NCBI GenBank assembly: GCA_902196205.1
Contig: CABIKM010000011.1
Coordinates: forward strand, 62,001-126,000
Source: Candidatus Methylomirabilis lanthanidiphila
GTDB taxonomy: Bacteria; Methylomirabilota; Methylomirabilia; Methylomirabilales; Methylomirabilaceae
DNA: 64,000 nt
Direction: 5' to 3'
Part shown: one piece after another, positions 29,998-50,521 of the stretch
Position numbering within the stretch: the stretch's first letter is position 1
How the letters are laid out: every line of letters begins with the position of its first letter
The notes under the pieces: model-generated
Told to the model about the DNA's origin: nothing
Seen by the model: only the letters and a program-made list of their open reading frames with translations
Databases searched by the model: none
Program-made: the position numbers and the translations under genes

Positions 29998-30023
29998 GAA
30001 CCGTCTCCCGGTTCGGTGAGGTG

Positions 30024-30287: not shown

Positions 30288-30376
30288 TTCCTCTCCACTC
30301 CTATCATACGTTGATACGGATCCGGCTCGCCGCGACACTGGCGGCGGTCTCGGCAACAAAAGATCGCGGATGATCG

Positions 30377-32182: not shown

Positions 32183-32198
32183 GCCGGCTCAGGACCTC

Positions 32199-33149: not shown

Positions 33150-33152
33150 TGC

Positions 33153-34532
33153 CTACGCCTCAGACCACTCTTCGAACAGTCCGGTCGGCAGCAGGATGCC
33201 GGCATGCTTGAGCCGCTCGGTGAACTTCGGCCGGATTCCGGTCGCCTTGTGTCGACCGAGCACGACCCCTTGCTCGTTGACGCCTTGCTTCTCAAAGGCA
33301 AAGATGTCCTGGGTCGTAATGACGTTGCCTTCCATCCCGACGATCTCAGACACGCTAATCACTTTCCGGCTCCCATCGCTTAAACGGGAAAGCTGGATAA
33401 TCAGATCCAGAGCCGAACAGATCCACCCGCGCAACGCGCGCTCGGGAATGCTGAGTCCCGCCATCAGCACCATCGTCTCCAACCTGGTCAGTGCGTCGCG
33501 CGCCGTATTCGCGTGGATGGTGGTCAGCGATCCATCGTGGCCTGTGTTCATCGCCTGAAGCATGTCGAGCACCTCGCTGCTTCGAACCTCGCCGACGACA
33601 ATCCGGTCCGGACGCATCCGGAGGGCGTTCCGTACCAGGTCGCGCTGAGTGACGACACCCGTCCCCTCGATACTGGCCGGCCGTGTCTCCAGGCGAACGA
33701 CATGGTCCTGGTGAAGCTGCAGCTCCGCCGAATCCTCTATGGTGATAATGCGTTCAGTCGCCGGGATGGAACCCGACAGGACATTCAAAAAGGTCGTTTT
33801 CCCACTCCCTGTGCCGCCGGAGATCAGGACGTTCAACCGTGCGCGCACGGCGCCCATCAGCACCTCAGCCATCTCCGGCGTCAGGGTGTGGAAGCCGAGA
33901 AGGTCCTTCATCTGGAGGGGATCCGCGCCAAATCGGCGAATCGACAGAACGGGACCGGTCAATGATACAGGGGGGATGATGGCGTTGACACGCGAGCCGT
34001 CAACCAGACGAGCGTCAACCATTGGAGAGGATTCGTCCACTCGCCGCCCTACCTGTGAGACGATCCGATCAATAATCTGCATCAGGTGAGCATTATCTTT
34101 GAATACGACCTCGGTCGGCTCCAGTTTTCCAAAACGTTCAACGTAGACCTGATGCGGGCCATTGACGAGGATGTCTGAGATCTGCGGGTCGTGCAGCATC
34201 GGCTCAAGCGGCCCAAGTCCCAGCGTCTCGTGCAGTACCTCGACAACGAGCCGATCTCGCTCCGATCGATTCAACGGCATGCTCTCGGCCTGAACGAGCG
34301 CCTCGACCGCGCGACCGATTTCGGCCTCCAACGCCTCCTGGGGGATGCGCGCGAGGTTCGAGAGATCAAGACGATCGAGCAGCCGGCGATGAATACGCGA
34401 TTTCAGCTCCTGATAGGCGTTGCGGGTCGGCCGACTATCAGGTTCGATGATCACCGGTGCAGGATCTGAAACGTTTTCATCCTTCCGAGGAACCGGACCG
34501 AACGCCCTATTCAGGCGATCACTCAGCGCCAT
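33153..34532 (-). CDS. cpaF: Tad pilus assembly ATPase CpaF/TadA
   Basis: 459 aa secretion ATPase of the VirB11/GspE class that powers Flp pilus assembly. The N-terminal region (about 1-170) precedes the motor domain with [18 protein letters not shown] (Walker A), Asp box [20 protein letters not shown], Walker [18 protein letters not shown] and the His box [16 protein letters not shown]. The length and all motifs match active family members. It is upstream of tadB/tadC in the operon. Confidence 0.94.
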
Positions 34533-34553
34533 TGCGATCCTCCACGGCGCGCA

Positions 34554-34883
34554 TCACTCCGGATTCGCCCGAAGCCGTTGGGGCGTGATGATGTACGGCC
34601 CGCTGCATGCCGCCGTGATGGCCTCCGACGCATCTCTCGCGACGGGCTTGCTCCCGAAGGTCAGCAGATACGCGAGCCCCGATATTACATTCGTTGTCGT
34701 GCACAACGCCAGCCTCAACGGCACGTTCACAACGGTGAGCAGTGTGCTGGCCACCGCGTAGTCGAGCTGGAGCCCAAGCGACTCCTTTGGCTCCTCAGCC
34801 GAGGCAACAGGGGAGCCGAATGGGCTGAGCACAAACACGATCAGGAACACGGCGATTGCGTAACATGTTCGGCGCCCTACCAT
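34554..34883 (-). CDS. Small exported protein in the Tad operon
   Basis: 109 aa, beginning MVGRRTCYAIAVFLIVFVLS with a clear signal peptide or anchor ending near VASAEE. The rest holds a hydrophobic stretch (VVNVPLRLALCTTTNVISGL) and a conserved-looking CSGPYIITPQRLR tail. I know no function for it. The start follows a GGGGGAGGAGGG site and lies within 2 bp of the cpaE stop, so it is translated as part of the pilus operon. Confidence 0.7.
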   Translation of the reverse strand: MVGRRTCYAIAVFLIVFVLSPFGSPVASAEEPKESLGLQLDYAVASTLLTVVNVPLRLALCTTTNVISGLAYLLTFGSKPVARDASEAITAACSGPYIITPQRLRANPE

Positions 34884-34884
34884 G

Positions 34885-36141
34885 TTAGCCCTCCTCCCCC
34901 TGACTTTGAGGGATGCTGAATGGTTTCCTGCGAAACAGGTTGAACAGGCCCCTCGATGGCGCGGCCACTGAGCCTTTCCGTTTTTCCATGTGTGGCGGGA
35001 AAGGAACCGAGCGTTCTCTTCGATCCAGTCGCGCTGCCAATGTCGAAAAGTGAGCGGCCAGGGACGAGTTCGTGCCGCCAAGGGCAAGCGGCTCGCCGGC
35101 GATCAGAGACGTCGTCACGGCTTTCTCCTCAGGGAATGTCCAGAAAACCGGACGCTTGAGAATCTCCTGAGCCGTCTTTTCCGCGTTCCCGGGCGGCGAT
35201 GGGCAACGATTCAGCAGGAGTTTGACCTTTTCAGGATCATAGGCGAGACGGTCAAAGAGGTCCAGGCAGCGCTGAGTGTGATAGAGGCTCGAGAGATCCG
35301 GAGCCGCGACCAGCAGCAGCGCGTCGGCGACATCCAGGGCAGCGAGGGTCCGTTCATCATACGTGGGGGAGGTATCCACGACGACATAGGCAAAACTCGC
35401 CTTCAAGAGCGAAAGCAGTTGGCTGATCCGAAGCGGCTGGATAGGATCGGCCTCTTCGATCCGCTGTGGCGCCGCGAGAAGCGACACGCCTGACGGGTGG
35501 TCACACAACAAGCTCTTCAAAAAGAGGGCATCGACCCGATCCATGTTCATCGCGGCATCATGAATGGAGTAGGCCGGCTTGAGGTTGAAGAGCAGGTTCA
35601 AGTCGCCGGCCTGCAGGTCAAGGTCCACGGCCGCCACCGGCTGTCCAAACGACTTAGCGAGCGCCACAGCCAGATTGAGCGCAATGAGGGTGGTCCCCCG
35701 GCCTCCCTTGCAGCCGAACAGCGTGATGATCTTTCCCTTTTCGGCGGGATCGGCAGTTACCAGAGCCCGCTGGCGAGCGATGCGCTGGACGGCGGTCAGG
35801 AGATCCTTCTGACTCACCGGCCTGACGAGAAATTCCTGGGCGCCGGCCCGCACGGCTTGCAGGATCGTGTCCGTTCGCTGACCGTCGGACGTCACGAAGA
35901 TCGCGCTGTGCGGCGAGACGACGACAAGCCGTTCGATAACAGCGAGCCCGGGATCCGGGGGATTGCCGAGATCGAGGATGACGATCGACGGCTTCAGTTG
36001 GTTGACCAGATGATAACCGGTCTCAAAGTCGGCCGCCTCCGCCTCTACCTTCACATGTTCATAGTCTTTGAGCAGCTCCCGCAGCGCCTGGCGGCGCATC
36101 GGATCGCTGTCGATCATGAGCAACGACAGGGGTTCCGACAT
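34885..36141 (-). CDS. cpaE: Tad pilus assembly protein CpaE/TadZ (REC-ParA-like)
   Basis: 418 aa with an N-terminal receiver-like domain (residues 1-130, SLLMIDSDPMRRQALRELL, IVILDLG) and a MinD/ParA-like ATPase domain (FGCKGGRGTTLIALNLAVAL, a deviant Walker A; AAVDLDLQAGDLNLLFNL; VVVDTSPTYDE). CpaE/TadZ proteins mark the pole and recruit the Tad machine. The Lys-Gly-Gly-Arg-Gly-Thr-Thr loop keeps the deviant Walker lysine. The C-terminal 50 residues are basic and low-complexity. Confidence 0.9.
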   Translation of the reverse strand: MSEPLSLLMIDSDPMRRQALRELLKDYEHVKVEAEAADFETGYHLVNQLKPSIVILDLGNPPDPGLAVIERLVVVSPHSAIFVTSDGQRTDTILQAVRAGAQEFLVRPVSQKDLLTAVQRIARQRALVTADPAEKGKIITLFGCKGGRGTTLIALNLAVALAKSFGQPVAAVDLDLQAGDLNLLFNLKPAYSIHDAAMNMDRVDALFLKSLLCDHPSGVSLLAAPQRIEEADPIQPLRISQLLSLLKASFAYVVVDTSPTYDERTLAALDVADALLLVAAPDLSSLYHTQRCLDLFDRLAYDPEKVKLLLNRCPSPPGNAEKTAQEILKRPVFWTFPEEKAVTTSLIAGEPLALGGTNSSLAAHFSTLAARLDRRERSVPFPPHMEKRKGSVAAPSRGLFNLFRRKPFSIPQSQGEEG

Positions 36142-36156
36142 CGGTCGATCCTCCGA

Positions 36157-37305
36157 CTATTTCACCAATTGGACAGTTTGAAGGCCCGCGCACCCAGGAT
36201 CGGGTGCGCCTCCGAAAGCGGCGACTTGCGTAAAGCGTCCGATGACATCCTTACCCTGAATGTGGTCGAGGAAGAAGCCGCCAACCTTGATGACTGTGAC
36301 GTAATTACGTCCCGGATCCACAGGCAGCCGCGGATCAAAGAACGCGATTCGGATCAGCCTTGGACTGTTGATGCCTTTCGGCGAGTTCGCGCAGTTGCAG
36401 CTTGAATCCCAAAAGGCCGTCGGGTCCTGATCGATAAGAGCCTGCACGCCTTGCTGTGTCGGTCCCACTTTCGCCCCAGGTTCATCCTGCAGTTGATCGC
36501 CGACAGCCACAAAGCTATCAGGTCCGCAAGTGTCGATGTTTTCCCGGTACTGATCGCCGCCGGTAACTGGGGTTCCCCGGTTAAGAGGCGGGAAATCGAC
36601 AGGATTGTAAAAGCTAGGCGTGAGTTTCGCTTCACCGATCTTGAGGGTGACCTCGAGGCCGTTATCGCGGGGGTACTGGTAGCCGGTGGTAACAGGATCG
36701 TACAGGTCAATCCCATCATCGAATTCTCCGTTTCCATTCGTATCAACCCACTTGTCCGTGACCACCCAAGGCTTAAAGCAATTGCCGCTGCAGGCGTTCA
36801 CGCGTCGGGCAGTGGCGGCAGCCCCTACATTCGCAGCGTCCGAACCCGAATGATCCGCCGTGGCCTTTCCCAGCCCAAAGAGCTGCAAAACCGGCATGAG
36901 GAACAGCGGCATGGGGTTGCCGTGAGCAACATCGCGGTGGGTTTTGCAGGTGACTTGATCAGGGTTCGCGCTGTCTGCGGCGCACTCGCCGATGGTCCCC
37001 CCGTTGCTGTTACAGGTAAAGGCGTCAATCTGGGGGTCCGTCAAAAATTGCCCGATGATCGGGGTCTTTTTGGCGAGCGCTTTAGCGTCTGTCTTCGCTT
37101 GCGTCGGGATCGGGGCGACAAGCAGGCTGTAGGCTCCGGCGATCGCGCCGGCATCCGCAGCCGTCTGGGCTTGGTGCCGGGCGACGTAGAGGTAGGGGAT
37201 ATCGGTTGCCAGGGCTGTGAACGCAATCAGAACAGCGAGCATGACTATGGTCCATACCAGGATTGAGCCTTTCTCTGGACTCGGTAGTCGTTTCATTGTC
37301 TTCAT
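36157..37305 (-). CDS. tadG: TadG-like minor pilin/pseudopilin
   Basis: 382 aa. An N-terminal GSILVWTIVMLAVLIAFTAL helix and the following DIPYLYVARHQAQTAADAGAIAGA are the signature of TadE/G-like Flp-assembly proteins. The rest is a secreted domain with several cysteines (CNSNGG, CAADSAN, CSGNC, CGPDS, CNCANS), probably disulfide-bonded. Such proteins are thought to sit in the membrane or the pilus as minor components. The ATG overlaps the stop of the upstream gene by 4 bp. Confidence 0.83.
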   Translation of the reverse strand: MKTMKRLPSPEKGSILVWTIVMLAVLIAFTALATDIPYLYVARHQAQTAADAGAIAGAYSLLVAPIPTQAKTDAKALAKKTPIIGQFLTDPQIDAFTCNSNGGTIGECAADSANPDQVTCKTHRDVAHGNPMPLFLMPVLQLFGLGKATADHSGSDAANVGAAATARRVNACSGNCFKPWVVTDKWVDTNGNGEFDDGIDLYDPVTTGYQYPRDNGLEVTLKIGEAKLTPSFYNPVDFPPLNRGTPVTGGDQYRENIDTCGPDSFVAVGDQLQDEPGAKVGPTQQGVQALIDQDPTAFWDSSCNCANSPKGINSPRLIRIAFFDPRLPVDPGRNYVTVIKVGGFFLDHIQGKDVIGRFTQVAAFGGAPDPGCAGLQTVQLVK

Positions 37306-37880
37306 CTCTGACTTCCCGTCTGTGCGCCGGAGCCTTCGTCCGTAGCAGGCTCCTTCAACAGGAGTTTTTGGCGCTTTTCCCGTGTCAACTGGACGTCGTC
37401 GCTCGCCAGTCCCGGCACGTGGCGGCGCGCGTGTCGACTAAGGGTCTGCGCATTTTCAAGGGCCGTGATGGCCCCATGATACCTTTCAGCGGGATACGGA
37501 GTTCGTACCCCTAAGAACTGGGTGACGACCTCCTGAAATTGCGATTCGGCGGACTGGAACGCTACCGCGTCGAACTCATTGTAGCCGAGCCAGAGGACAG
37601 CCCGGGACTGCTCAAGCTCCGTCCAGGCGCTATTCAGCCGCGATGAAAGGAGCGCGGCCAATACTGAGTCGGTTCGGCCCTCAATCTCATTGATCGACCG
37701 CAACGCTTCCCGTACATCCCGTTCGAGGGCGGGCGGGTGGCGGAACGCTTGGCTCTCCCACGTTCCCAGGATAGTGCGCCGGAGCTGTTCGTTGGCGGGG
37801 GCGTAAGGTTCAAGACCGCCGCCGTGAGCGGTGGCGCAAAAGGGAATGGTCAAGGCTGCGAGCAGCAGCCCCGCCGTCAT
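37302..37880 (-). CDS. Exported helical protein in the Tad operon (TPR-like?)
   Basis: 192 aa, starting MTAGLLLAALTIPFCATAHG with a probable signal peptide. The remainder is predicted helical by eye (ERDVREALRSINEIEGRTD, AAFQSAESQFQEVVTQFLG-type pattern) and could hold one or two TPR-like repeats. In other tad loci a TPR lipoprotein, TadD, is present, but I cannot equate them. The frame is open upstream through a palindromic repeat, which is not part of the gene. The stop overlaps the TadG-like start. Confidence 0.65.
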   Translation of the reverse strand: MTAGLLLAALTIPFCATAHGGGLEPYAPANEQLRRTILGTWESQAFRHPPALERDVREALRSINEIEGRTDSVLAALLSSRLNSAWTELEQSRAVLWLGYNEFDAVAFQSAESQFQEVVTQFLGVRTPYPAERYHGAITALENAQTLSRHARRHVPGLASDDVQLTREKRQKLLLKEPATDEGSGAQTGSQR

Positions 37881-37922
37881 TGCCCTGAAAGTCTCCCTCA
37901 CCCGTCCTGAAATCCCCGTTTC

Positions 37923-37968
37923 AAATCCCCCCCAGCCCCCCTTTTCAAAAAGGGGGTTGGGGGGATTT
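37923..37968. repeat. Palindromic AAATCCCCC...GGGGGATTT element, copy 2
   Basis: A 46-bp inverted repeat (arms AAATCCCCCCCAGCCCCCC and the matching GGGGGTTGGGGGGATTT around TTTTCAAAAA). It sits between cpaC and the next gene of the Tad operon, so it will form a hairpin in the operon mRNA. About 40 bp further a TTTCATGCCCAT-GGCGCGCCACCG motif follows, which also occurs beside copy 3 at 61168. Confidence 0.8.
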
Positions 37969-38078
37969 CTGCGGGGTCGGGGGATCCTGCTCAACGTCGC
38001 AACTTTCATGCCCATGGGCGCGCCACCGACTCATGCGGTATTGACTCATCTCGACGCGTGCGTGTACTCATCGGTTCC

Positions 38079-39983
38079 TCACCTGCCAGGGACCTGGCGC
38101 ATCTCTTTCGCCTCTTCGGGCGTTGTTTTCATCTGTTCCTCCAGATTCGGCGCCTGCCCCAATGCGAACGGTTTGACAATGTCCGGGGTCACAAAGATGA
38201 TCAGATCGGTCTCGTCCCTGACGAATTTCGTGCTCCTGAAAAGGGCTCCGAGAACGGGGACATCGCCCAGGATCGGAAACTTCGTGAGTGTTTTGCGGTC
38301 CGCAACTTTGATAAGTCCGCCGATCGCCAAGCTCTGGCCGGACTTGAGGTCTACCATGGTAGATGCCCGCCTGGTTGTAAGCGATGGGAGCGTGAACCCT
38401 TGAATCGTGACGGCATTGACGAAATCCAGGTCGCTGACCTCCGGCGCAATTTTGAGGTTGATCGATCCCAGGTCGTTCAGCGTCGGCGTGAAGTCCAATC
38501 GGATGCCGAACGGTTTGAACTGGATGGTGACGGAGGTTCCTCCGCCTGCTCCGCCCCCGCCTTGGACCGATGGATATGGGAATTCGCCCCCCACTAAGAA
38601 ACTCGCGCTTGCCCCACTCGCCGCGATGAGCGTCGGACGCGCCAGCGACTTAAGAAGACCCTTTTGCTCTAAGGCACGCAAGAAAGTCCTTGTGTTGCCC
38701 TGGCTGATAATTGCGGACGTGCGCGGGTCGAAGCGTATCGCTCCATCCTTATCAATACTTGTATTGAGCACGCCGCCGGTCGTTCCGCCAAATACTGCGA
38801 GACCAAAGGTGGTCCCCAGATTGATAAAGTCGAAGCCGAGCTCGCGGAGGGCGTTCCGATTCACCTCCGCCACCTCTACCTTGAGCATGATCTGGTGCGG
38901 TTCGCTGAGGTGAAGCAGGTTGACTACCGCAGTCTTGTCCGGCAAGAAGGCCTTGGCAAGTTCGGCGGCCTTGACGGTCAGCGACGGGTTCGACACGGTC
39001 CCGGACAGCACAACCGACGTTCGGGCCGCCTTCACCTCGATCTCTTCCTGGGGGGCGAGATCTTTGATCGCCTGCTGCAGCAAAGAAAGATCTGCCGTCA
39101 CGACAATGTCAAAGTATTGCGTTGCCTCATGGGTCCAGGCGATCAGCGTGGTGATCCCCGGGGCCTTTCCGTTGATCAGGATCTGGCTTGGGGGTACGAG
39201 CTGAATGTTCGCGATCTCGGGATTCGTGACAGACACCCGCTGAAGTTGTCTCGAAAGATCTAAGACCATGGACCTACCGACAGCCACCTGCACCTGAGTG
39301 GTCTCGCGGCCGGCCAGGACGCGCGGGTCCGGGGTCGAGCCGTTGGTTTCGGCGGTCGATGTCAGGGCTCCAGGAACGGTCGCATCCCGTTCCTTTCCGT
39401 CCTTACCGCTTACCATGGGAACTTCGACAGCGCGCGCCGCAGGTGGTTCGACCGGACTTACCCCAGACTGCGGTTGCTGTGCCGGAGGCGCCTGTTCGGA
39501 CCCTTCCGCGCTCACGAGGATCTGCAGGTTGTTGCGACTCAGTTCCATCCGATACGGCAACAGCACCTTGAGATCGAGGACAAGACGGACTACGGGGATG
39601 GGATGCTCCTGATATTGAAAGGTCTGGATGCTCAGGATGGGGGAGCCGGACGGCAGGTTCGCGGGCCGGGTGATCGCGTGTCTGGCGCGGGGCAGATCGA
39701 TGACGAGGCGTGGCGGGTCGTAAAGCGCGGACGATTCATAGTCCGTCAGCGGTCCATCCGCGATTACGAGGATGGCCACGTCGCCGGATGCCTCCGCCAA
39801 GACCTGCACACCGGTTACCTCGGCGACCTGCGCCGGCCGAGCAGCGGTCGGAGAGGGCAGGGCCGGCAACGGCTGTCCCACGGCTTTGGCGGTCGGTAAT
39901 CCGCCGGCAACGCAGGATGTGGTGACGAACAGCAACATGGTCTGTACGAGCCAACCGCTCCACACAGAACGGATCTCGCTCAT
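38079..39983 (-). CDS. cpaC: Tad pilus secretin CpaC/RcpA with N-terminal AMIN domain
   Basis: 634 aa outer-membrane secretin for the Flp pilus. After a signal peptide (MLLFVTTSCVAGG) comes an AMIN-type domain (about residues 45-160, VTGVQVLAEASGDVAILVIADG). A linker follows, then a pilus-type secretin N domain (VAVGRSMVLDLSRQL), a BON-like segment and the secretin core (GSINLKIAPEVSDLDFVNAV, SGQSLAIGGLI, ILGDVPVLGALFRST). The start is the ATG after CGGAGACC, with an alternative at 40019. The AMIN domain is unusual for CpaC and closely resembles the one in this window's PilQ. Confidence 0.9.
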   Translation of the reverse strand: MSEIRSVWSGWLVQTMLLFVTTSCVAGGLPTAKAVGQPLPALPSPTAARPAQVAEVTGVQVLAEASGDVAILVIADGPLTDYESSALYDPPRLVIDLPRARHAITRPANLPSGSPILSIQTFQYQEHPIPVVRLVLDLKVLLPYRMELSRNNLQILVSAEGSEQAPPAQQPQSGVSPVEPPAARAVEVPMVSGKDGKERDATVPGALTSTAETNGSTPDPRVLAGRETTQVQVAVGRSMVLDLSRQLQRVSVTNPEIANIQLVPPSQILINGKAPGITTLIAWTHEATQYFDIVVTADLSLLQQAIKDLAPQEEIEVKAARTSVVLSGTVSNPSLTVKAAELAKAFLPDKTAVVNLLHLSEPHQIMLKVEVAEVNRNALRELGFDFINLGTTFGLAVFGGTTGGVLNTSIDKDGAIRFDPRTSAIISQGNTRTFLRALEQKGLLKSLARPTLIAASGASASFLVGGEFPYPSVQGGGGAGGGTSVTIQFKPFGIRLDFTPTLNDLGSINLKIAPEVSDLDFVNAVTIQGFTLPSLTTRRASTMVDLKSGQSLAIGGLIKVADRKTLTKFPILGDVPVLGALFRSTKFVRDETDLIIFVTPDIVKPFALGQAPNLEEQMKTTPEEAKEMRQVPGR

Positions 39984-40033
39984 TGGTCTCCGGGAGTGGG
40001 AATTTCTGTATCTCACCATGAGGTGATCTCGTG

Positions 40034-40876
40034 TCAGGGCGTCTCGATCGGGTAGGTTTCAGTGGTGCGCTTGTCGCCCCGGATCACCTCGATTTCGATC
40101 ATTTTCCCTTCCTTTTTTTCTGGTTTGGTATCCGCTTGAGTTTTTCGGCTTCCGGCTTTCCTTCGCACGACGGCTTCCTGCGCAGACGCCGCAAGATGCC
40201 CCTCCTGCCTGTCCCTGTCCATAACGGATCGCAGGGCGATATGGATCTTGCCTTGCTGCAAAGCGAGGGCAAGGCGTTCCGCCTCGGGCGGGCTCACGGC
40301 TAATGTCAGGGTGGGGACCTCGACGTTTTGCTTGCCTTCCTGCTCCAGGCGCTTTCCCGCAGCCAGCACCTCGATGTTTTGTAGAATCGTTTCAGATGAT
40401 TTACTCGATTGGTCGCTTCTGGTGGCAATGACGTCCACCCGGTCTTTCGGCAGGATGAATCCGCTGACACCGATGACCTCATTGACCCCGACCGCCATGG
40501 CGCGCTTGCCGGGAGGCACCATGACCGACATGATCCCTGGCGTCCCGCTTACGTCCTTTGGAAACAGGCGGCTCTCGAGTATCGGCTCATCGCGGGTAAT
40601 CTCGCCTTTTACAAGGCGACCGACTGCCGCGTCGCGTTCTGAGAGGGCCCCTTGTGGCACACCGGCCTTCGGCCAGTCCCGCACCGTAATGAGGCCGGCG
40701 TCAAGGCGGGTTCCCATTGGGATGTTGTTCGCGGCGACAACGATCGGTTGGGCCTCCATTCTGGTGCGCCTCGCCTCTTCCTCTCGCGTCCGAACGTACC
40801 TGACAACCAGAACGCTGGCGAGGACGGCACAGATCAACGCCGTGGCGAGCATAAGGATCAGGCGTTTTACAGGCAT
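40034..40876 (-). CDS. cpaB: Tad pilus assembly protein CpaB/RcpC
   Basis: 280 aa periplasmic protein anchored by an N-terminal helix (LILMLATALICAVLASVLVV). An SAF domain follows (VVAANNIPMGTRLDAGLITV, VGRLVKGEITRDEPILESRL), then the RcpC-type region (RAMAVGVNEVIGVSGFILPKDRVDVIAT). CpaB works with the CpaC secretin. The start is set by MPVKRLILML after a CAGGAAG site. The C-terminal 45 residues are Lys/Glu/Arg-rich. Confidence 0.92.
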   Translation of the reverse strand: MPVKRLILMLATALICAVLASVLVVRYVRTREEEARRTRMEAQPIVVAANNIPMGTRLDAGLITVRDWPKAGVPQGALSERDAAVGRLVKGEITRDEPILESRLFPKDVSGTPGIMSVMVPPGKRAMAVGVNEVIGVSGFILPKDRVDVIATRSDQSSKSSETILQNIEVLAAGKRLEQEGKQNVEVPTLTLAVSPPEAERLALALQQGKIHIALRSVMDRDRQEGHLAASAQEAVVRRKAGSRKTQADTKPEKKEGKMIEIEVIRGDKRTTETYPIETP

Positions 40877-40904
40877 CTTCCTGGCCTTGGATACCGATGA
40901 GTTC

Positions 40905-41330
40905 TCATAGCTCGTAGCGCATAGTGGCGGAACTCGAGAGCGGGATGGTTCCGGCAAAACTGAACCCGAGGAGCGGCCCGATCCCCGTCAGCCACGTGTA
41001 GGTAAGCGCAATGTTGACCGTCGTCTCGAGAGGTGTCCCCGTCGCCGCGGTATTGGTCACCGTGGCCCCGGCGATCCCGGCACTTGTTAGGATAGTCGTT
41101 GCCTTGGTGATCACTGCGCCATTGTTTGTCGTAAGATTCGGCGTGACAGAAGCAAGCCTCACTGCCTCCCTGGCAGCGTGGTTCAAGGTGTTAATGATCA
41201 ACCAGGCCCGCCCGAACTCGAAGATTCCAAAGACCAGGAGCAAAAACAGGGGGAGGATGAGAGCCATCTCCACGATCGTCGAACCGGCCTCACCACCAAT
41301 GCGCGATCTTTTTTTCCCCAGTTGACGCAT
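40905..41330 (-). CDS. tadE: TadE-like pseudopilin
   Basis: 141 aa with the TadE N-terminus: GGEAGSTIVEMALILPLFLL, a prepilin-like G-STIVE cleavage context followed by a hydrophobic helix. The conserved FEFGRAWLIINTLNHAAREA comes next and then a Thr/Ala-rich domain. It is a minor Flp-pilus component. The start MRQLGKKRSR was preferred over longer in-frame extensions that lack resemblance to the family. It is the second gene of the operon, after the major pilin. Confidence 0.88.
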   Translation of the reverse strand: MRQLGKKRSRIGGEAGSTIVEMALILPLFLLLVFGIFEFGRAWLIINTLNHAAREAVRLASVTPNLTTNNGAVITKATTILTSAGIAGATVTNTAATGTPLETTVNIALTYTWLTGIGPLLGFSFAGTIPLSSSATMRYEL

Positions 41331-41444
41331 CGGCTTCGTTCCCCAGTCATGCGCATGTGGAGTCTGGCCCTCGACACAGTGTTCACGCCTGACCGAGGGC
41401 CAGACTCTAGGAACCACCCTTATCACTTTGTATGGAGCGCAAAG

Positions 41445-41615
41445 CTACATGGCGCCAGTGATCGTTGTAAAGGCGTTCTGAACGTCGGTCCCGAGCAGCG
41501 TAATCAGGGCAATCGAGATCGCGACAATCAAAGCCAGCCAGATTCCAACCTCTACGATCTCAGCTCCCCGCTCATTGTTCAGAGGGCGACGGATTCGTTC
41601 TTTTAGCTCTTTCAT
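41445..41615 (-). CDS. flp: Flp/Fap major pilin subunit
   Basis: A very short gene for a 56 aa prepilin: MKELKERIRRPLNNERG, then the processing site G17/A18 with Glu at +5 (AEIVE), then a hydrophobic helix ending LLGTDVQNAFTTITGAM. The charged leader, the G-AEIVE site and the small size are those of Flp pilins assembled by Tad systems. A GGAAGGAG site precedes the ATG. It is the first gene of the minus-strand Tad operon. The prepilin peptidase (CpaA/TadV) that should process it is not in the window. Confidence 0.88.
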   Translation of the reverse strand: MKELKERIRRPLNNERGAEIVEVGIWLALIVAISIALITLLGTDVQNAFTTITGAM

Positions 41616-42250
41616 GGTCTGTCTCCTTCCTAAAGAAAACCGTTGACAGAATAACTGGCCCTCGCTCTCAAAAACCGCTCTTGCTCAGCTTGATCACCTC
41701 ATAATATACCACCTCCATCTTTATTGTGTTGCATGATACGCACGTTAACGCTCCACTGACTGAATAGCTAGTGATACAGTAGTCTCAATATTGAGACGTT
41801 AATATATTCATGGATAGTAATTATGTCAAGCATATTCTATGCAATTGACACTATTTGTCATATCGATGTATATAATATGTCACTAGGATATCAATATTAA
41901 TGATGATGTATTGACATATCCTTATTCTATGATCAATTATGCTATTCTGGACAATGAATATATTGGCGAAGCACTGATATTCATTTTTTGGTCTCTAACC
42001 CTGATAACCGTAGCATAATATATGCCACAGTGAACTAACGCGAAGCACATGGCGCACTGGCGGATACGTTATGGCTATGTTGGTGTGCCTAGTCATGACT
42101 CGCTTTGCAGGATTCAACGCATTGATGGCGATGGAACCGCGGTGAGCGCCGAGATGTCATGAGATCTAAGTACACTTACATCGATACGATTCGCGGGCTC
42201 GGGATCTATCGACTGCCTCGATCCCGACCGAGCTGGGCTTATTCCGTCTG
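41616..42250. other. AT-rich intergenic region between the Tad operon and a glycosyltransferase
   Basis: A divergent spacer, strikingly AT-rich from about 41690 to 42020 in a GC-rich genome, with no convincing gene. It should carry the Tad operon promoter on the minus strand. On the plus strand TTGACA (41845-41850) with TATATA 18 bp later (41869-41874) is a candidate promoter, overlapping an inverted repeat TGACA-CTATT-TGTCA (41846-41860). The base composition could reflect a regulated promoter bound by a nucleoid protein, or foreign DNA. Confidence 0.5.
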
Positions 42251-44104
42251 ATGCGCACTTTTTGGCACCAGCACCCTAACCCGAAACGGCATATCGACTC
42301 CATGGCAACGCGACTAGACAGCCTGTCGCCGCACGCCATCTTCGCGATACACGCGATTGCGTTCGTCGTGTTGGTCTGGTGGAGCTGGGGCAAATGGCTC
42401 GATCCGCTCATCGACTTCGGCCGGGAGCTGTACGTCCCATGGCAGATTACGCGAGGCCGAGTGCTTTACCGTGATATCGCCTCGCTTTTTGGTCCGCTGT
42501 CACCGTACGTGAACGCGCTCTGGTTTCAACTGTTCGGTGTGTCGTTGGCGACCCTCGTGTTCTGCAATCTTGTCATCTTCGCGGCGATGATCGCCGGCAT
42601 CTATCGGCTGGTACGCAGATCGACCGACCGTAGCACGGCAAGCGCGGCGAGCCTCTCGATATTGCTGCTCTTTGGTTTTTCGCAGTATGTGGAGATTGGG
42701 AACTACAACTTCGTGTGTCCCTACTCGCACGAGGCGACACACGGCATCGCGCTAAGCGTCGCGATGATGGTGTGTCTGCAGGACGCCATTGCCGCCGGCC
42801 GCCGCCTGCTCTTCGCGATGGCGGGCGCCTGCTTCGGCTTGGTGCTGCTCACGAAGCCGGAGATCGCTCTCGCGGCGTTCGCGGCAGTTGCGGCCACCTG
42901 GGCAGCCTGGGTAGCAACCGACACCCACGACAGGCGCGCTCTTCGGCAGAGCGTTCCACTGTTTCTCGCAACAGCAGCCGTTCCTCCTTTACTGTTCTTC
43001 CTGTATTTCATCAGGCACATGGAATCCGCAGAAGCGTGGCGGGCTATTATGGGCGCCTGGACGCCGGTATTCATACCGGCCATTACCAGCAACCGTTTCT
43101 ATCGGCTCAGCATGGGGCTGGATCGCCCGGTCTCCCATGGCATCGCCATGTTCCTGAGCTTCGCGGGGTGGCTCGCGTTCGTCATCGTGGGGGTTGTTGT
43201 ATCCTGCATGGAGCGATCCCGGCCGTCGGTGATCAGGCGGGCGGTGTGGTTGACTCTAATCGCCGGAGCCGTTGCCTTCTTCATGCGGACGGGCACGTGG
43301 CCTCGGGCGCTCCCGTTCATCACTGCCACAGGCTCGCTCGCTGTCGCCGTCTTATTCCTTGGCGTCCGGAGCAATCGCGCTCAGGCGCTTCGGTTGTTGC
43401 CGCTCGTAACGTGGTCGGCATTTGCGCTGGTCCTCCTTGCGAAGATGGGACTGTACCCGCGCATTTCTCACTATGGCTTCTACCTTGGACTTCCCGCCGG
43501 CGTCTTGGCTATCGTGTTGCTGTATTGGCTAATTCCGCATCAGATTGAAAGGTATAGCTCCGCTGCGGGCGCCCGGTTCTTCCGACGGCTTGCGCTAATG
43601 GCTCTGGTCGGAGCGATAGTGCCGTACGTCGGGCTCTCCCATGCCTTGTATCGAACGAAACAGGTGGCGATTGGCTCGGGCGGTGACCGGTTTTTTGCGT
43701 CCTCAGGATTCTGGCAGGGCCACGCCGTGCGACAGGCGCTGCGACACATCGAGCAACTCGACGCGCCCCACACTACGTTGGCGGTCTTGCCGGAAGGAGC
43801 GATGTTGAACTATCTGCTGCGCCGCGATTCTCCCCTGCGAGTCATCAACCTCATGCCCCCCGAGATCCTCGCGTTCGGCGAGGACGACGTCCTGCACTCA
43901 CTTCAAGCGGCGCCGCCGGATTTCGTGCTTCTTGTCCACAGAGATGTGATCGAATATGGCTATCCGCTGTTTGGTACCGATCCGCGATACGGACTGCGGA
44001 CCATGACGTGGCTGACGGCTCATTATCGATCGTCCCAGGTCATCGGCCGAAATGTGATGAGCAATTCCGGATTCGGTATCGAAATCTTTCGGCGAAATCC
44101 GTAG
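42251..44104 (+). CDS. Polytopic membrane glycosyltransferase-like protein
   Basis: 617 aa with about eleven hydrophobic segments from residue 28 onward and a soluble C-terminal tail (about 490-617). The first periplasmic loop has [21 protein letters not shown], which fits the acidic first loop of GT-C/PMT-type lipid-linked sugar transferases. The exact substrate is unknown. An alternative start at 42302 (MATRLDSLS) is possible, and neither has a strong ribosome binding site. It faces the minus-strand glycosylation genes across a short spacer holding a sucD fragment. Confidence 0.75.
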
Positions 44105-44107
44105 ACG

Positions 44108-44209
44108 CCTGTCGGGGTCGTCGTTAAAGAGCGTGATGGCATCGATGTGCGTTGGGCCGATAACGGGGTCGCCACCGATTCCGATGCGGGTGGACTGGCC
44201 GATAGAGAC
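44108..44209 (-). pseudogene. Fragment of a succinyl-CoA synthetase alpha gene
   Basis: On the minus strand 34 codons read [20 protein letters not shown], then [14 protein letters not shown]. This is colinear with the window's SucD (nt 470-571, [18 protein letters not shown]...) with 18 of 34 residues identical and no gaps. The GQST-IGIGGDP motif is specific for SucD. No recognisable sucD sequence continues on either side, so it is an isolated relic. The divergence suggests a homologue from another source, not a recent copy of the resident gene. Confidence 0.7.
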
Positions 44210-44262
44210 AGATGCACTTCCGAAGCAAACAGTATTGAACCGAACAAGGAACGCGAACCCTC

Positions 44263-44994
44263 TTAACCTCTCGGGTTGGCGCCGGTTGCGACGGCCATGA
44301 GAGAGTTGCCAAACGGCAGCCAGCCGGCGAGGAGATACTCTGCGCGACACCACACGCGAAGCCCGGCGTTCCAAGCGGGCGCCGGTACCTGCGGGACCCG
44401 CGGTCGTGTGGAGATCAGCGCCTCCTTCGCACGAATCAGCAGCTTGGGCCCGACCAATGACTGGAATAGGTAACGCGTTTCCAGGGTGACCAGCCCGGCC
44501 CGATCCATTGTGCTCCTCAGTTGGCCAGCCGTATACCGTCTGACACGGTAGTTTATGTCATCGTGTGGAGTCCAGATCCAGTCGAATGCAGGCACGGTCA
44601 CCACGATGCGACCGCTAGGGTTCAGAATCTCCCCAGCACGTCGAAGCAGATGAGTAGGATCGTGAATGTGTTCGATCACGTCGAGCATCAGGATGAGATC
44701 GAACGGTTGCGTCGGCCGGTACGAGGCGTCTAACTCTCCTGCAACGATGCGGCTGCCCCAGCGCCCGGCTCGTGTGATGGCCGACGCGTCCGACTCGATA
44801 CCTTCCACGTGACCCAAATGTTCCAGCGCGTCGAAGAAGAGGCCGGCCCCACACCCGACATCGAGGATTCTGGCGTGTCCCGAGACATCAATGAGAAGGC
44901 CCCCAATTTTGCGGAGCAAGATCTCCTCGCGGACTCGCCACCACCAATGATGTTTATACAGTTCCGGATAGACATCTGCGTATGACGCATCCAT
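44263..44994 (-). CDS. Class I SAM-dependent methyltransferase
   Basis: 243 aa. The SAM-binding motif I is [19 protein letters not shown], motif II VEGIESD, and the later [20 protein letters not shown] is typical of UbiE/Methyltransf_11-type enzymes that act on small molecules or sugars. The C-terminal 60 residues include hydrophobic stretches. The start [19 protein letters not shown] overlaps the stop of the upstream GT2 gene (TGATG), so it is part of the same operon. The substrate is unknown. Confidence 0.85.
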
Positions 44995-45923
44995 CAGTCG
45001 CAGCCGTTCACGATTTCGGCGACCACATATGGCGGGCGACCTTTCGCTTCGCCGTAGATCCGGCCAAGATACTCGCCGATGACGGCCAGAAAGAGCAGTT
45101 GCACGCCGGACAAGAACGTCATCACGAGGAGCGAAGCCGTGAACCCCGCGGGCACCGTGCCGACCATGAGGCGCATGTAGATTGAGTAAGCGGCGAATAT
45201 GGACGACAGGACGATGGCGACCAGACCGGCCAGCGCGGCCGCTCGTAGCGGTACGATAGAGAATGAACATAATCCATCGAGCGCCAGCTTTATGAGCTTC
45301 CAGGTCGAGTACTTGGATTTTCCGGCGAATCGTGCGCGCCGGGGCACGTCCACGCCGACCTGGGTGAACCCGACCCAGGCCCGCAAGCCTCGTAGATAGC
45401 GCTCGCGTTCGGGAAGGCGCCGAACAGCGGCAATGACCGGCGACCCGAGGAGAGCAAAATCGCCGGCGTCGAGTGGCAGCTTTACCTCCGCAAGCGAAGA
45501 GAGCAACCTGTAGAAGAGCAGATACGACGTGCGAAGGACCAACCCTTCCTCGCGCGACGCGCGACGCGCGTAGACGACGTGGGCGCCCGCCTCGTAATGG
45601 CGAACGAACTCGGGGATCACTTCCGGTTCGTCCTGTAGGTCCCCGTCCATCAGCACGACGGCGTCGCCTGTGGCGTAGTCGAGAGCGGCCGACATGGCTG
45701 CCTGATGACCGAAGTTCCGTGAGAGCGCGACGACCTTCATGCGCCGGTCACGCCGAGCTGCGCTCACCAGGATTCCCCGTGTCCCATCGGTGCTGCCATC
45801 GTCAACGAACACGACTTCGTGCGGGCCTCCCGGAATCGAGTTCAGGACGGGCAGGAGCCTTGTGATGAGCTGCGGCAGGACCGCCTCCTCATTGAAGACG
45901 GGAATGCCTATGGAGAGGCGCAT
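44994..45923 (-). CDS. Family 2 glycosyltransferase with two C-terminal membrane helices (GtrB/DPM-like)
   Basis: 309 aa. GT2 motifs are SIGIPVFNEEAVLPQLITRL, VVFVDDGSTDGTRG, FGHQAAMSAALDYATGDAVV and MDGDLQDEPEVIPEF. Two membrane helices (about residues 225-300) fit undecaprenyl-phosphate sugar transferases such as GtrB or ArnC, which pass the sugar to GT-C enzymes. The membrane glycosyltransferase-like genes on both sides are plausible partners. The start MRLSIGIPVFNEE is fixed by family alignment; the gene overlaps the upstream methyltransferase gene by 16 bp. Confidence 0.9.
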   Translation of the reverse strand: MRLSIGIPVFNEEAVLPQLITRLLPVLNSIPGGPHEVVFVDDGSTDGTRGILVSAARRDRRMKVVALSRNFGHQAAMSAALDYATGDAVVLMDGDLQDEPEVIPEFVRHYEAGAHVVYARRASREEGLVLRTSYLLFYRLLSSLAEVKLPLDAGDFALLGSPVIAAVRRLPERERYLRGLRAWVGFTQVGVDVPRRARFAGKSKYSTWKLIKLALDGLCSFSIVPLRAAALAGLVAIVLSSIFAAYSIYMRLMVGTVPAGFTASLLVMTFLSGVQLLFLAVIGEYLGRIYGEAKGRPPYVVAEIVNGCD

Positions 45924-46516
45924 GCCTTGGTTTGCCCTTGAAGATACACCATCGCCCAGAGTCCTCCGCCGACTTGATAAGGCTCGATGAGCACCGGATC
46001 GAAGTGGGCGACGAACAGCCCACGCCAATCCCCAACCGATCTGGGGTACTGACCCCGATCGAGCCTGGCCATCAGTTTAGCTAGGGAGGGTCGCTCCGGC
46101 AATACGAGTTCGAGAACATGTACGCGTCCGTCTGGCTCGAGGAGCTGCGGTAACTGTCTCAGGATGTGTGCAACGGCGCTGTCGGGCAGATGGTGCAGGA
46201 GGCTATTCACGATGATGGTGTCAAAGCGGCCAAGCGAGGAGATGTCGGCATGCGCCAAATCGGCCTGGATGAATCGACCGTGATACTTCGACCTCGCGAT
46301 AGTCAGGTAACGCTCGTTGATATCGATCCCGATGTAGTCCGCGTGTTCGAACCGCGCAGTGTTAGTCCCGGGCCCGCACCCGACATCGAGGACTCTTCTG
46401 ATCGGCTGGTCGCGGATCTGTCGCTCGACGGGGGCAAACTTCCGGGCCACGAATGGCGCCTGCCACGCGGCGTAAACAGCCGGATGCTCCAGAAGACGCT
46501 CGATGAGACCTATCAT
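45908..46516 (-). CDS. Class I SAM-dependent methyltransferase
   Basis: 202 aa with SAM motif I VLDVGCGPGTNTARFEHADY, acidic IGIDINERY and the ADISSLGRFDTIIVNSLLHH segment. It belongs to the broad Methyltransf_11/25 group; the substrate is not known. The ATG overlaps the stop of the upstream membrane protein as ATGA and has CAGG at suitable distance, so it was preferred over a GTG two codons earlier. Confidence 0.85.
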   Translation of the reverse strand: MIGLIERLLEHPAVYAAWQAPFVARKFAPVERQIRDQPIRRVLDVGCGPGTNTARFEHADYIGIDINERYLTIARSKYHGRFIQADLAHADISSLGRFDTIIVNSLLHHLPDSAVAHILRQLPQLLEPDGRVHVLELVLPERPSLAKLMARLDRGQYPRSVGDWRGLFVAHFDPVLIEPYQVGGGLWAMVYLQGQTKACASP

Positions 46517-48327
46517 CGCCACCTGACTTCGAACTTGCCGATGTGTTCCCCGTTGGGAAACTCCAGTCTAAGCTTCTCCAGCAGACCTCCAGAGGGCTTC
46601 GGCGTAAACCCTGGCGTAAGATTGATTACGATCACGTCGCCCTTCGACCAGGCGGCGAGGGCGTCCTCGGATGGACGTGCCGTATCGAGCGAGAAGAAGT
46701 CGAACAGGGCTCTCGATGGATTGACCATGCCCGAGAGGAAATACACCTCGGGGCAGTCAGGCCCGGCAAGCAGTTGGCCGCCACGACCATGGCGCGCGAT
46801 GGAGAACACCACGCGACGATACGTCTCAACATCGTCGGGACTGACCTTCAAATGAGCGCGTGGCAAATTGAGCCGCGCGTCGAAGCGGCGTGGTGCGTGC
46901 AAGACGCCGAGCGTTTCGATATACGCGCGGTGTGAACTGAGCATCGTGAAAAGGAGCATCATCGCGGTCCAGGGCAGAATCGTACGAGAACGCAGGCGCG
47001 AACTCGTACCGCAGAGGGCCACGCCGGCAATGAGCGCGAGCGGGGTGACGTAACAGAAGTAGATCGGGGCAGCGAACGGGAATTGGTTAAGCGAAATCCA
47101 CGCGAGTGTCGACGCCGACGCAAAAAGAAAGCGCCGTTGGGTCGGGTCCTCGATGCGTCGCCGAGCCAGGCAATAGCAGATTGCGAGCGGCAGCAGCGCG
47201 GCCAAAGCTCGGGTCGATTGCCAGATCAATTGGTATGGCGTGATATACCAGAGCCCGAGAATCGGGAGTGAGATGGCTGCCGCCCACAACAAGAATTGGA
47301 ATAGATATTGCGAGGATAGCACGAACTGGCGGCGTACTGGCAACACGAGCGCCAGCATGGGGAGGCCGGTGAGCATGACGGCGGCTGACGGCATTGGGGT
47401 GCCGGCAAAGTCCAGTCGCTTACGTGGAAGAATGACGGCGCCGTAGACCAGGTCCCATAACCGATGCTCAACGAGATAGGGGATGAGTAGAACCATGAGA
47501 GGCAAGGCCATCGAAGCGCCCACGATGAGCGCCGGCGCGAGCTGCGGCTGCGACTCGGCTGACGCCCGGTCTTGCGACGGCAGCAGGAGCATGATGGCGC
47601 ACGCCGCAACCGGACAAAACAGGTACAAACCTTCGGCGTTGAAGATTCTGGGCGCGAGAATCACCGTTGCCGCTGCGAGGGGCACGGCCGCAGCTCCCCA
47701 TCGAAGTCCCCGTTCAACGCCGGTCAGGACCGCCGACGAATTCCGGCCCGATCGGCCGCCCTCGTATAGAACCGACATTACCAGCGCAACGAGCAAGTAT
47801 AGACCAGTCTGCTTGACAGCGACGGCGAGACCGGCCAAGAGGCCTGCAAGGGCCACGTAGTGCCACTGTTCCGTTTCGAGGTAGCGAAGGAACGCCCACA
47901 GGCACCCGAGGGCGCACACCAGCAACCACCACGACGGTATGGGGGCGAAGTAGTTTGGGAAGCTCCATGCCAGCGCGACCCACGTTCCGAGCGCCGCCCC
48001 GACCGGCTGGAGATAGCGTCTGAGTATTAAGTAGGTCAGCCAGACTGCCACTGCCGCGCCGGCAAAGAGCGTCCACCTTAAATGCAGCAGGTCGACGCCG
48101 CTGATCTTGAATACGGCAGCATAGAAATACGTCAGGCCTCCTGTGTACGACTCCTCGTAGTCAACGTGCGGGACGCCGCCCTGAAGCACTCGTTCTGCAG
48201 ACTGCCCCAACATGCCCTCGTCATGTGGAATCCAGCCTCTTGGGACAAAGGGCACGAGGTAGGCGAGTGCTGCGACGAGCATCAGCACAGCGAAGAACGC
48301 GTGGCCTTTAGATGCAGGAACCTTCAT
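46513..48327 (-). CDS. Polytopic membrane glycosyltransferase-like protein
   Basis: About 604 aa with roughly twelve hydrophobic segments and a soluble C-terminal domain (about 475-604). The first loop has PRGWIPHDEGMLGQSAERVL, an acidic motif in the position expected for GT-C/GT39 enzymes, and GLTYFYAAVFKISG follows. It resembles, in layout, the plus-strand membrane protein across the sucD fragment. An upstream GTG (48360) is an alternative start. First gene of the four-gene minus-strand set with two methyltransferases and a GT2, probably for a surface glycan or glycolipid. Confidence 0.75.
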   Translation of the reverse strand: MKVPASKGHAFFAVLMLVAALAYLVPFVPRGWIPHDEGMLGQSAERVLQGGVPHVDYEESYTGGLTYFYAAVFKISGVDLLHLRWTLFAGAAVAVWLTYLILRRYLQPVGAALGTWVALAWSFPNYFAPIPSWWLLVCALGCLWAFLRYLETEQWHYVALAGLLAGLAVAVKQTGLYLLVALVMSVLYEGGRSGRNSSAVLTGVERGLRWGAAAVPLAAATVILAPRIFNAEGLYLFCPVAACAIMLLLPSQDRASAESQPQLAPALIVGASMALPLMVLLIPYLVEHRLWDLVYGAVILPRKRLDFAGTPMPSAAVMLTGLPMLALVLPVRRQFVLSSQYLFQFLLWAAAISLPILGLWYITPYQLIWQSTRALAALLPLAICYCLARRRIEDPTQRRFLFASASTLAWISLNQFPFAAPIYFCYVTPLALIAGVALCGTSSRLRSRTILPWTAMMLLFTMLSSHRAYIETLGVLHAPRRFDARLNLPRAHLKVSPDDVETYRRVVFSIARHGRGGQLLAGPDCPEVYFLSGMVNPSRALFDFFSLDTARPSEDALAAWSKGDVIVINLTPGFTPKPSGGLLEKLRLEFPNGEHIGKFEVRWR

Positions 48328-48360
48328 ATCTGATGAGGATTTCGAGCGAAACCACCCCAC

Positions 48361-49368
48361 TCCACGCGACCATCGCGAAAGTTAGGAGCAAGATTCCGAC
48401 AACGCAGTTCCTCCGCAAGCTCCTCGAAACCTACTGTCCTGACATCGTTCATTTAACGATTGGAATCTAACGATAGGAATTGACTTGTGGGAGGATTACA
48501 TCTTGGAGGAGAAGAAGTCAAGTGGGATTTTTCGGCTTGTGGTTATTGATACAGCATAACTCAAGTATAAGGTGCAATAAAATGGGTGAGCATAGCGGAA
48601 GTGAGCGCGCAGGAAGTAGTGATGTGAGAAGACTAGAGAAGATGACATTGTGTGTGACCCACTCGACAAATAGGAGCTTAAGAGGACGAACACAGCTCTT
48701 TCTGGTAACACTAACTAGGGATGGTAGCAGCCATGAATCAGAGATAGGAAAGTAGAAAAAACCTTGTGGGCCACTTGGGAAGCCGATATAAGGGTGTGGC
48801 GGCGCATGGCGGCTTGCCAAGTCTCACGATCTGTGGCTTCACGCCCAAGGCGTTCAGGACTCGCATGTCCTTACTCGTCTAACGTAAGGAAAGCGGACTC
48901 CACCGCGAATTCTTTGCGAGGCGGCACAGCTCGCCGCCTACTACGGCCGAGCGCGTGGGGAGGTTGAGGCGCCGGGGTTCGTTCAAGGGTCAGGAGCGAT
49001 CTTGAGGCCGGCCCTCGGATGATCAGAGCCGAGACCGACCTGCCGCTTGCGATGGAGTTTAGCATCTCAACGCCAGAGCAGGTGCGAATGGTGGCGATGA
49101 CGGCCGCCGGCGTGATCGTCGGAAGTGCGATCATCTCGCTGTTGGAACAGACGGCCGGACAGCTCGATTAGTTGCAACGCGCTGACGACTTCGTCGCGCC
49201 GCTGAAAGCGACGACGAGGACACTAGCCACGATTGGCTGAAAGCCAACGATTCGTTCTTCGACGTTCTACCTCTCGCCTTTCTGCTGGAGTTCCTAAAAC
49301 CATCTCAGAACAGATCCGTTCGTATCGATTCTTTGCATAGTTCTGAATGTCTATGTGATGTATTTCGC
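48361..49368. other. Gene-poor spacer with decayed sequences
   Basis: About 1 kb without an intact gene. The left part (to about 48780) is lower in GC and only has short frames on both strands that overlap each other and show no protein-like pattern. Around 48880-48970 is a GC-rich stretch of unknown origin (ANSLRGGTARRLLRPSAWGG in one frame), followed directly by the trpA fragment. The last 150 bp are AT-rich and lead into the pilM promoter. Confidence 0.5.
48974..49216 (+). pseudogene. 3' fragment of a tryptophan synthase alpha gene
   Basis: 81 codons colinear, without any gap, with the TrpA end of the resident trpBA (nt 28128-28370): RAETDLPLAMEFSISTPEQV against [40 protein letters not shown] against [20 protein letters not shown]. 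By my count 55 of 81 residues are identical. A TAG stop (49169-49171) interrupts it and the upstream two thirds of the gene are missing. It is therefore a dead remnant, either of an old duplication or of a transferred trpA. Confidence 0.88.
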
Positions 49369-49397
49369 TTGACGCATCTATTATAACATCGTATAAG
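49369..49397 (+). promoter_or_regulatory. Sigma70-type promoter of the pilMNOPQ operon
   Basis: TTGACG (49369-49374) and TATAAG (49392-49397) each match consensus at five of six positions with a 17-bp spacer. The predicted start point is about 45 nt before the pilM ATG. This position argues against GTG codons further upstream as pilM starts. Confidence 0.65.
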
Positions 49398-49450
49398 CTC
49401 ATGTGGAGCAGGCGGTGATAGCGTATAATATAGTAACACAGATAACAGTG

Positions 49451-50521
49451 ATGTGTGCGTGGTTAAGGCGTCAAACGGAGCTGGTTGGACTGGATATCGG
49501 GACCAGTTCTATTAAGGCTGTCCATCTTCAACGATCACGGGGTTCCTATAGGGTGGCGGAACTCGGCATCGTCCCTCTCCATCCCGGGACGATCGTGGAT
49601 GGAATGATTATGGACGCTGCTGCCGTGAGCACCGCCATCCGACACCTGTTCGACACGCACGGCATAACGGTCAAGGACGTTGCCTTTTCTGTCTCCGGGC
49701 ATTCGGTGATCATCAAAAAGATAAAGACGCCGAGGATGCAGGCGGCAGAGCTTCGCGAGGGGATCGCGTGGGAGGCTGCACAGCATATTCCCTATGCGAT
49801 CGACGATGTCAACCTCGACTTCCAGATCCTGCGAGGCAAAGACTCCGGCTTGGCTGAGATGGATGTGCTGCTGGTGGCGGTCAAAAAGGATATCCTGAAT
49901 GACTATCTCTCCGCCATCTCCGCAGCCGGACTGAATGTCGCCGTTGTTGATGTAGGCGTCTTCGCTATCGAGAATACCTTTACGATGCTGAAAAAGGTTC
50001 AGCCGGGCGAGGTGGTCGCGCTCGTCAATGTGGGAGCGGCTGCCACCAACATCAATATCCTCTCTGACGGAATCTCCGACTTTACCCGGGATAGTCCGCT
50101 GGGGGGCAACCGACACACCGAATCGGTGGAGAGAAGCATCGGTGTAAGTTTTGAACAGGCCGAGGCGTTAAAAAGAGGTAAGCCGGTCGAGGGGCACAGC
50201 TTCAGGGAGGCGGAACCGGTCATCGAGATGGTCAACAGCGAATTAGCCGGTGAGATACGACGCTCGTTCGATTTTTATTACTCAACAAGTCAACACGACA
50301 CCATCCATCGAATGGTCTTAAGCGGCGGATGTGCACTGTTGCCAGGGCTGGCCGACTACCTTTCAAGTACGCTTGAGCTTCCCGTTGAGGTTGCCAATCC
50401 CTTCCAATATATTCATGCTGAGCCGAAAAAGTACGATGCTCAATTCCTGGCCTCGATCGCACCTCAGATGGCAGTCGCCGTGGGATTGGCCCTTCGCGAA
50501 GCGGAGGAGAACGCGGGATGA
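49451..50521 (+). CDS. pilM: Type IV pilus assembly protein PilM
   Basis: 356 aa actin-like ATPase of the cytoplasmic T4P ring. Motifs include VGLDIGTSSIKAVHL (phosphate 1), ELREGIAWEAAQHIPY and, near the end, MVLSGGCALLPGLADYLS (adenosine motif). It binds the cytoplasmic N-terminus of PilN and links the motor to the PilNO complex. The start is the ATG that falls downstream of the predicted promoter; longer GTG starts are open but unlikely. It overlaps pilN by 4 bp. Confidence 0.94.
   Translation: MCAWLRRQTELVGLDIGTSSIKAVHLQRSRGSYRVAELGIVPLHPGTIVDGMIMDAAAVSTAIRHLFDTHGITVKDVAFSVSGHSVIIKKIKTPRMQAAELREGIAWEAAQHIPYAIDDVNLDFQILRGKDSGLAEMDVLLVAVKKDILNDYLSAISAAGLNVAVVDVGVFAIENTFTMLKKVQPGEVVALVNVGAAATNINILSDGISDFTRDSPLGGNRHTESVERSIGVSFEQAEALKRGKPVEGHSFREAEPVIEMVNSELAGEIRRSFDFYYSTSQHDTIHRMVLSGGCALLPGLADYLSSTLELPVEVANPFQYIHAEPKKYDAQFLASIAPQMAVAVGLALREAEENAG

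Follow-up and report, generated by a model that had tools for sequence, protein, structure and literature searches.

The window analyzed here is a 64,000-nucleotide stretch of DNA from Candidatus Methylomirabilis lanthanidiphila, lying on contig C11 of a genome (G000) that totals 3.05 Mb and is assembled into 90 contigs (the other G-numbers denote the genomes compared with it). Our genus set comprised 15 genomes, G000 and 14 congeners, within a collection of 60 genomes overall. The window carries trpA sequence at two places (Table 1). The first is the end of a long open frame that trpB and trpA share, and the product of this frame is the working enzyme. In most congeners trpB and trpA occupy separate frames, with trpA open frames of 270-330 codons, and the shared frame is either a natural TrpB-TrpA fusion or the result of a lost stop. 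The second place, 48974-49216, holds 81 codons of TrpA that align without a gap to codons 604-684 of the trpBA frame in a translated alignment; 55 of the 81 residues are identical, and codon 66 is a TAG. A search of the whole genome with PF00290 (curated cut-off, 27 bits) returned these two places only, the intact gene at 301.6 bits and the fragment at 41.4 bits (E = 1.3e-10), and a score above the cut-off excludes a chance match. The fragment spans only positions 177-255 of the 259 in the profile and contains one stop. As judged from translation and profile, it is a truncated, non-functional member of the TrpA family and most likely has no function of its own. Among the 15 genomes of the genus, G000 alone has a second trpA piece in the PF00290 search. 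An earlier note on this DNA had described a broken trpA 3' end some 21 kb from the intact gene, too diverged to be a recent copy and marking the edge of an accessory block ahead of the pil operon, and had named a lack of TrpA similarity as one result that would overturn it. The profile match bears this description out, as does the DNA comparison: the fragment and the end of the intact trpA, which lies upstream, form a repeat of 244 bp (28128-28371 and 48974-49217) at 77.9% identity, the copies are 20.6 kb apart, and pilM follows the fragment.

Table 1. Features of the trpA-pilM region, in window coordinates.
Feature	Position	Strand	Evidence or remark
Working trpB-trpA	26319..28394	+	One open frame, 691 codons; TrpA part PF00290 301.6 bits, without stop; translation
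Live member of the 244-bp repeat, covering the last third of trpA	28128..28371	+	Self-comparison, 77.9%
Inserted island between the two trpA-end copies, 20,602 bp	28372..48973		Empty trpA-pilM junction in 10 of 11 testable congeners
Tad/Flp pilus cluster, glycosyltransferase and 510-aa protein	28460..41725	-	Pfam T2SSE, T2SSF, Secretin, RcpC, TadE, Tad
PMT_2 glycosyltransferase unit	42139..44169	+	86.2% over 2037 bp to the G003 unit
Methyltransferases, family 2 glycosyltransferase, second PMT_2 protein	44263..48360	-	Pfam
Internal rqcH (NFACT) piece, codons 493-548, with stop	48807..48975	+	169 bp; overlaps the trpA fragment by 2 bases
Probable displaced resident trpA 3' end, TAG at 49169-49171	48974..49217	+	PF00290, translation, self-comparison
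Ancestral trpA-pilM spacer, 185 bp	49218..49402	+	Alignment to G011, G006
pilM, opening the resident pil operon	49403..50521	+	PF11104, E 5.8e-79

We find that the two genes flanking the island are neighbors in nearly all of the testable relatives. A congener was testable if trpA and pilM lie on one readable stretch, which holds for 11 of the 14, and in 10 of these 11 trpA adjoins pilM with no insert. The three left out are G001, where the two genes are on two contigs, G012, whose short contig lacks a pilM match, and G002, in which the PF00290 search found no trpA. From the trpA stop to the aligned start of pilM there are 143-432 bp in G003, G004, G005, G008, G009, G011, G013 and G014, and the gap in G006 and G010 is about 0.15-0.22 kb as read from coordinates. 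In G000, the 428 bp at 48974-49401 align to the trpA end and spacer of G011 (77%) and G006 (73%). Given that the fragment, the 185 bp behind it and pilM align just as the trpA end of a congener does, the fragment stands where trpA once ended, and since it keeps both the position and the spacer, it is the resident end that is broken. The junction was ancestrally a direct one, its spacer is retained, and a direct repeat of the trpA end brackets the island. The exception among the testable congeners is G007, with 7.5 kb between trpA and pilM. This insert (contig C10, L062) is an independent one at the same junction, and its frames resemble prepilin-type proteins. A trpA stump in the G007 insert was sought and rejected (best blastn E = 0.26), a point against the reading proposed below; insertion is thus possible without a visible scar.

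Based on this arrangement, we propose that the fragment is probably an insertion scar and not a second gene, the resident trpA end having been displaced by additive, homology-anchored integration of congeneric DNA. Additive recombination, anchored in trpA, would have brought the 20.6-kb block into the trpA-pilM junction. On one side, the upstream part of the resident trpA would have been joined to an incoming trpA 3' end followed by the island; on the other, the island's far end would have been joined inside the resident trpA, leaving the last 81 codons as a dead remnant. We infer a congeneric species as the source of the incoming DNA, which was perhaps taken up by transformation or a similar route. 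The join at 48974 may be non-homologous, or may mark where a homologous piece of a circular donor ended. Two routes could yield the order of live end, insert and old end: integration of a circle through one crossover, or pairing of a linear piece on one side with a homology-free join on the other. A fragment that looks like clutter would then be a record of the island's entry into the chromosome.

Processes with some of these properties have been described in other bacteria. Homology-facilitated illegitimate recombination, known from transformation of Acinetobacter and Pseudomonas, similarly pairs one side by homology and joins the other without it. That process usually deletes recipient DNA, whereas here a short stretch is kept twice. 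Transformation of Streptococcus pneumoniae is described as creating merodiploids through partly repeated donor DNA (PMC3784515). As in our case, partly homologous incoming DNA there leaves a complete and a second copy without a transposase; however, the duplications described are of about 100-900 kb between repeats, compared with a 244-bp end flanking a 20.6-kb island here (PMC3784515). A further difference is that the copies in G000 look like different alleles, and transformation is for G000 only the presumed route. Bacillus transformation between genomes at 90% identity is described as having mosaic outcomes (PMC13344027). In the titles and abstract openings of the literature on Methylomirabilis gene transfer and recombination, no title was about gene-end scars of this kind.

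The island itself carries pilus, glycosyltransferase and methyltransferase genes. Its Tad cluster is collinear with one on G003 contig C137 at 79-88% DNA identity, and the 510-aa protein grouped with it has no Pfam match. The PMT_2 unit has its counterpart at 1065-3101 of L083 (G003 contig C179), between rqcH and ppx, and was not found in the other 13 genomes compared. In these two species the unit occupies different sites in the chromosome, and its ends are sharp and similar at both. A hidden mobile element with common ends was considered and rejected: the ends of the PMT unit are alike in G000 and G003, but no end sequence shared among the different inserts was established. The exact junction pattern occurs in no stretch of the scanned genome contigs, from which the window's own genome was possibly left out. 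Elsewhere in the window, short dispersed repeats lie at 24830-24878, 37936-38028, 61094-61190 and 61220-61679, in intergenic or gene-edge positions.

Islands and prophages that sit in the 3' end of a protein-coding gene, such as e14 in icd, also leave the target gene end complete and the old end at the far border, and remnants of this sort at the borders of islands are well known. A site-specific recombinase might likewise have put the block into the trpA 3' end, supplied the new end and later been lost. The geometry of complete gene, island and displaced 3' end fits such an event, and the repeat opens with 11 identical bases. We nonetheless consider an integrase-type island unlikely. A Pfam scan of 17 island proteins found no recombinase or integrase; the repeat has 11 identical bases at its start and no long identical core, although an att core could have decayed; and other scars in the genus, described below, lie in several different target genes and at 5' ends too. 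Gene-end remnants as such are familiar, and what is unusual here is that no integrase was found, that the alleles are diverged and that the pattern recurs at several genes in one genus.

We next compared the two trpA ends with each other and with those of the congeners. The fragment is more similar to trpA of G003 (83.5%) than to its own intact gene (77.8%), and the same is true at third positions (75.3% versus 66.7%). Across 243 sites, the fragment shares the base of G003 rather than that of the intact copy at 27, and the reverse holds at 13; the counts for the other 12 congeners are less favorable than for G003, and at third positions (8 of 14 rows) a clear lean is seen in the G003 comparison only (P = 0.124, not significant alone). 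Forcing the fragment and the intact end into one clade costs 9.9 log units, a value reached by 0 of 80 simulated alignments in a parametric bootstrap (maximum 3.8), whereas the AU test taken alone does not reject their sisterhood (p = 0.095). These values come from a segment of 243 bp with a mostly unresolved tree, on which several tests were run with uncorrected p values, and tests by simulation tend to be too permissive when the model is wrong. The case that the two ends are different alleles, and probably not sisters, is therefore good but not final as read from this segment, and it is well supported as part of the scar reading. An old within-lineage duplication, one copy of which then slowly decayed, would account for the shared reading direction and the ungapped alignment and is not rejected by the AU test; slow decay was one of two readings in the earlier note. 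By simulation, however, the copies are not each other's nearest relatives, the third positions also favor G003, and we regard such a duplication as very unlikely.

The insertion-scar reading further implies a foreign end on the intact gene, and here the phylogeny is suggestive. Codons 1-188 of the intact trpA group with G013 and G003 (support 86/84 and 88/95), and the AU test rejects a clade of this part with G010, G004, G008 and G014 (p = 1.7e-4). For the last 81 codons, the AU test rejects a grouping with G013 and G009 (p = 0.035) or with G013 and G003 (p = 0.024) but does not reject a wider seven-row clade that includes resident relatives (p = 0.42); G010 is itself unusual in this segment. 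This pattern, drawn from several uncorrected tests, suggests that the intact trpA may be a hybrid gene with a foreign end. The evidence for a foreign origin of its last third together with the island is moderate, and we hold a foreign 3' end of the intact trpA to be roughly half as probable as the scar reading as a whole. The earlier note had raised import of a homologue for the fragment, with its phylogeny as the check. Import thus seems to have been assigned to the wrong copy: the fragment is resident by position and spacer, and the last third of the intact gene is the better foreign candidate. In the tree the fragment falls near G009, G013 and G003 with weak support, and pilM next to it forms a clade with G013 and G009 (98/97). 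That the fragment was instead imported from another species, or carried on the island, beside a wholly resident intact gene would agree with its closeness to G003 and with a neighboring rqcH piece that seems to have travelled. But the fragment runs on without a break into the ancestral spacer and pilM, and pilM belongs to the resident clade with G013 and G009, and we judge such an import quite improbable.

The rqcH piece at the left edge of the fragment is a remnant of a second gene. The genome's own rqcH is intact (PF05833 and PF05670), and the piece is not its sister (0 of 40 simulations; AU p = 0.029), which disfavors duplication within the genome as the source of the rqcH fragment. The collinear Tad cluster of G003 has uvrA on one side and a 5' stump of rqcH (codons 1-159) on the other. 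Given that the Tad and PMT parts are thus both associated with rqcH in G003, the piece may have travelled with the island. Upstream of it, a 66-bp piece (48736-48801) has matches elsewhere in four congeners. Together with 48472-48543, it matches unrelated, apparently mostly non-coding places in congeners at 74-84%.

Similar arrangements occur elsewhere in the genus. In the first example, the order in G003 is rqcH, ppx codons 1-25, the PMT unit, rqcH codons 565-599 and a complete ppx. The repeat flanking the PMT unit is 170 bp long (84.7%) and its rqcH parts are 88% alike; over 75 bases only, the ppx stump is nearest to G004 (85%) and the live ppx nearest to G006 (87%). In a second example, an rqcH 5' stump stands next to a methane mono-oxygenase neighborhood in both G003 (codons 1-159) and G000 (codons 1-38), and both genomes have the complete rqcH on another contig, whose end carries the start of pmoC. 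A PmoC/AmoC gene (PF04896) lies near the G003 stump, and the AU test does not reject this stump and the live copy as sisters (p = 0.44). For comparison, uvrA adjoins rqcH directly in G004 and G009, and G006 (L108) has pmoC and a second exported protein between them, an arrangement that contig ends in G000 (L111, C36; L080, C35) and G003 (L079, C137) fit. In a third example, G014 has rqcH codons 1-108, an insert with frames that read from translation as response-regulator-like, and a complete rqcH, of which the stump is not a sister (0 of 40 simulations). On contig C35 of G000, the end of a regulator gene is duplicated (142 bp, 82.4%) around 1.16 kb, and the region downstream follows directly in G001, G004, G005, G009, G011 and G014; sisterhood of this pair is not rejected (4 of 40 simulations). 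In a final example, 121 bp at 86.8% flank a protein of G006 that reads like an aldehyde dehydrogenase, at a locus that is uninterrupted in G008 and G014. By repeat anatomy alone, contig C26 of G000 holds two more candidate scars, a 143-bp repeat (84.6%) around a 793-aa protein and a 90-bp repeat (85.6%) around 0.7 kb common to G003.

These loci also bear on the quality of the assembly. A genome in 90 contigs is likely to be of mixed-community origin, and an assembly could in principle have fused pieces of different genomes at the trpA fragment. However, the fragment contains a stop and follows a degraded rqcH piece, a similar scar is present in G006, whose genome is a single contig, and the C26 insert is common to G000 and G003. 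We therefore hold an artefact to be extremely improbable.

To gauge how common such remnants are, we counted gene-end remnants lying at most 30 kb from a complete gene, in insertion geometry or in another geometry. G000 (425 kb) gave seven rows in insertion geometry at six sites, among them a tandem peptide-like case and an 18-codon remnant on C26, and one in other geometry. G006 (400 kb, a stretch that includes its trpA-pilM locus) gave one and two, respectively, and G026 and G054, from outside the genus (396 kb), gave one and three. Internal pieces, counted apart, numbered seven in G000, one in G006, one in G026 and none in G054. One known remnant, the 38-codon rqcH stump on C36, escaped the scan, and its sample was non-random, with C11, C35 and C36 of G000 chosen for the loci studied and C26 for its known length; the counts suggest, and do not prove, an excess of end remnants in G000. 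We raise as a tentative possibility that recombinase-free, homology-anchored additive entry at gene junctions, between species about one fifth diverged, recurs across the genus, each event leaving a second-allele scar of 90-490 bp from the neighboring gene end; a genome's scars would then reveal the donor clade and the sequence in which insertions took place. If this process is genus-wide, gene-end remnants would trace accessory insertions (pilus, glycan, methane mono-oxygenase and others) in these hard-to-culture bacteria, and would suggest that diverged species exchange such genes by additive recombination instead of through dedicated mobile elements.

Two further repeats were not counted as scars. 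The 48.5-kb pair in G006 is a repeat of another kind, and the repeat at 206 kb on C26 of G000 consists of three tandem copies of a small peptide-like ORF. At the latter locus (L133, approximately 205700-207373), a radical-SAM-like gene is followed by the three small ORFs, which are diverged (77-80% between copies) and appear to resemble a modified-peptide precursor.
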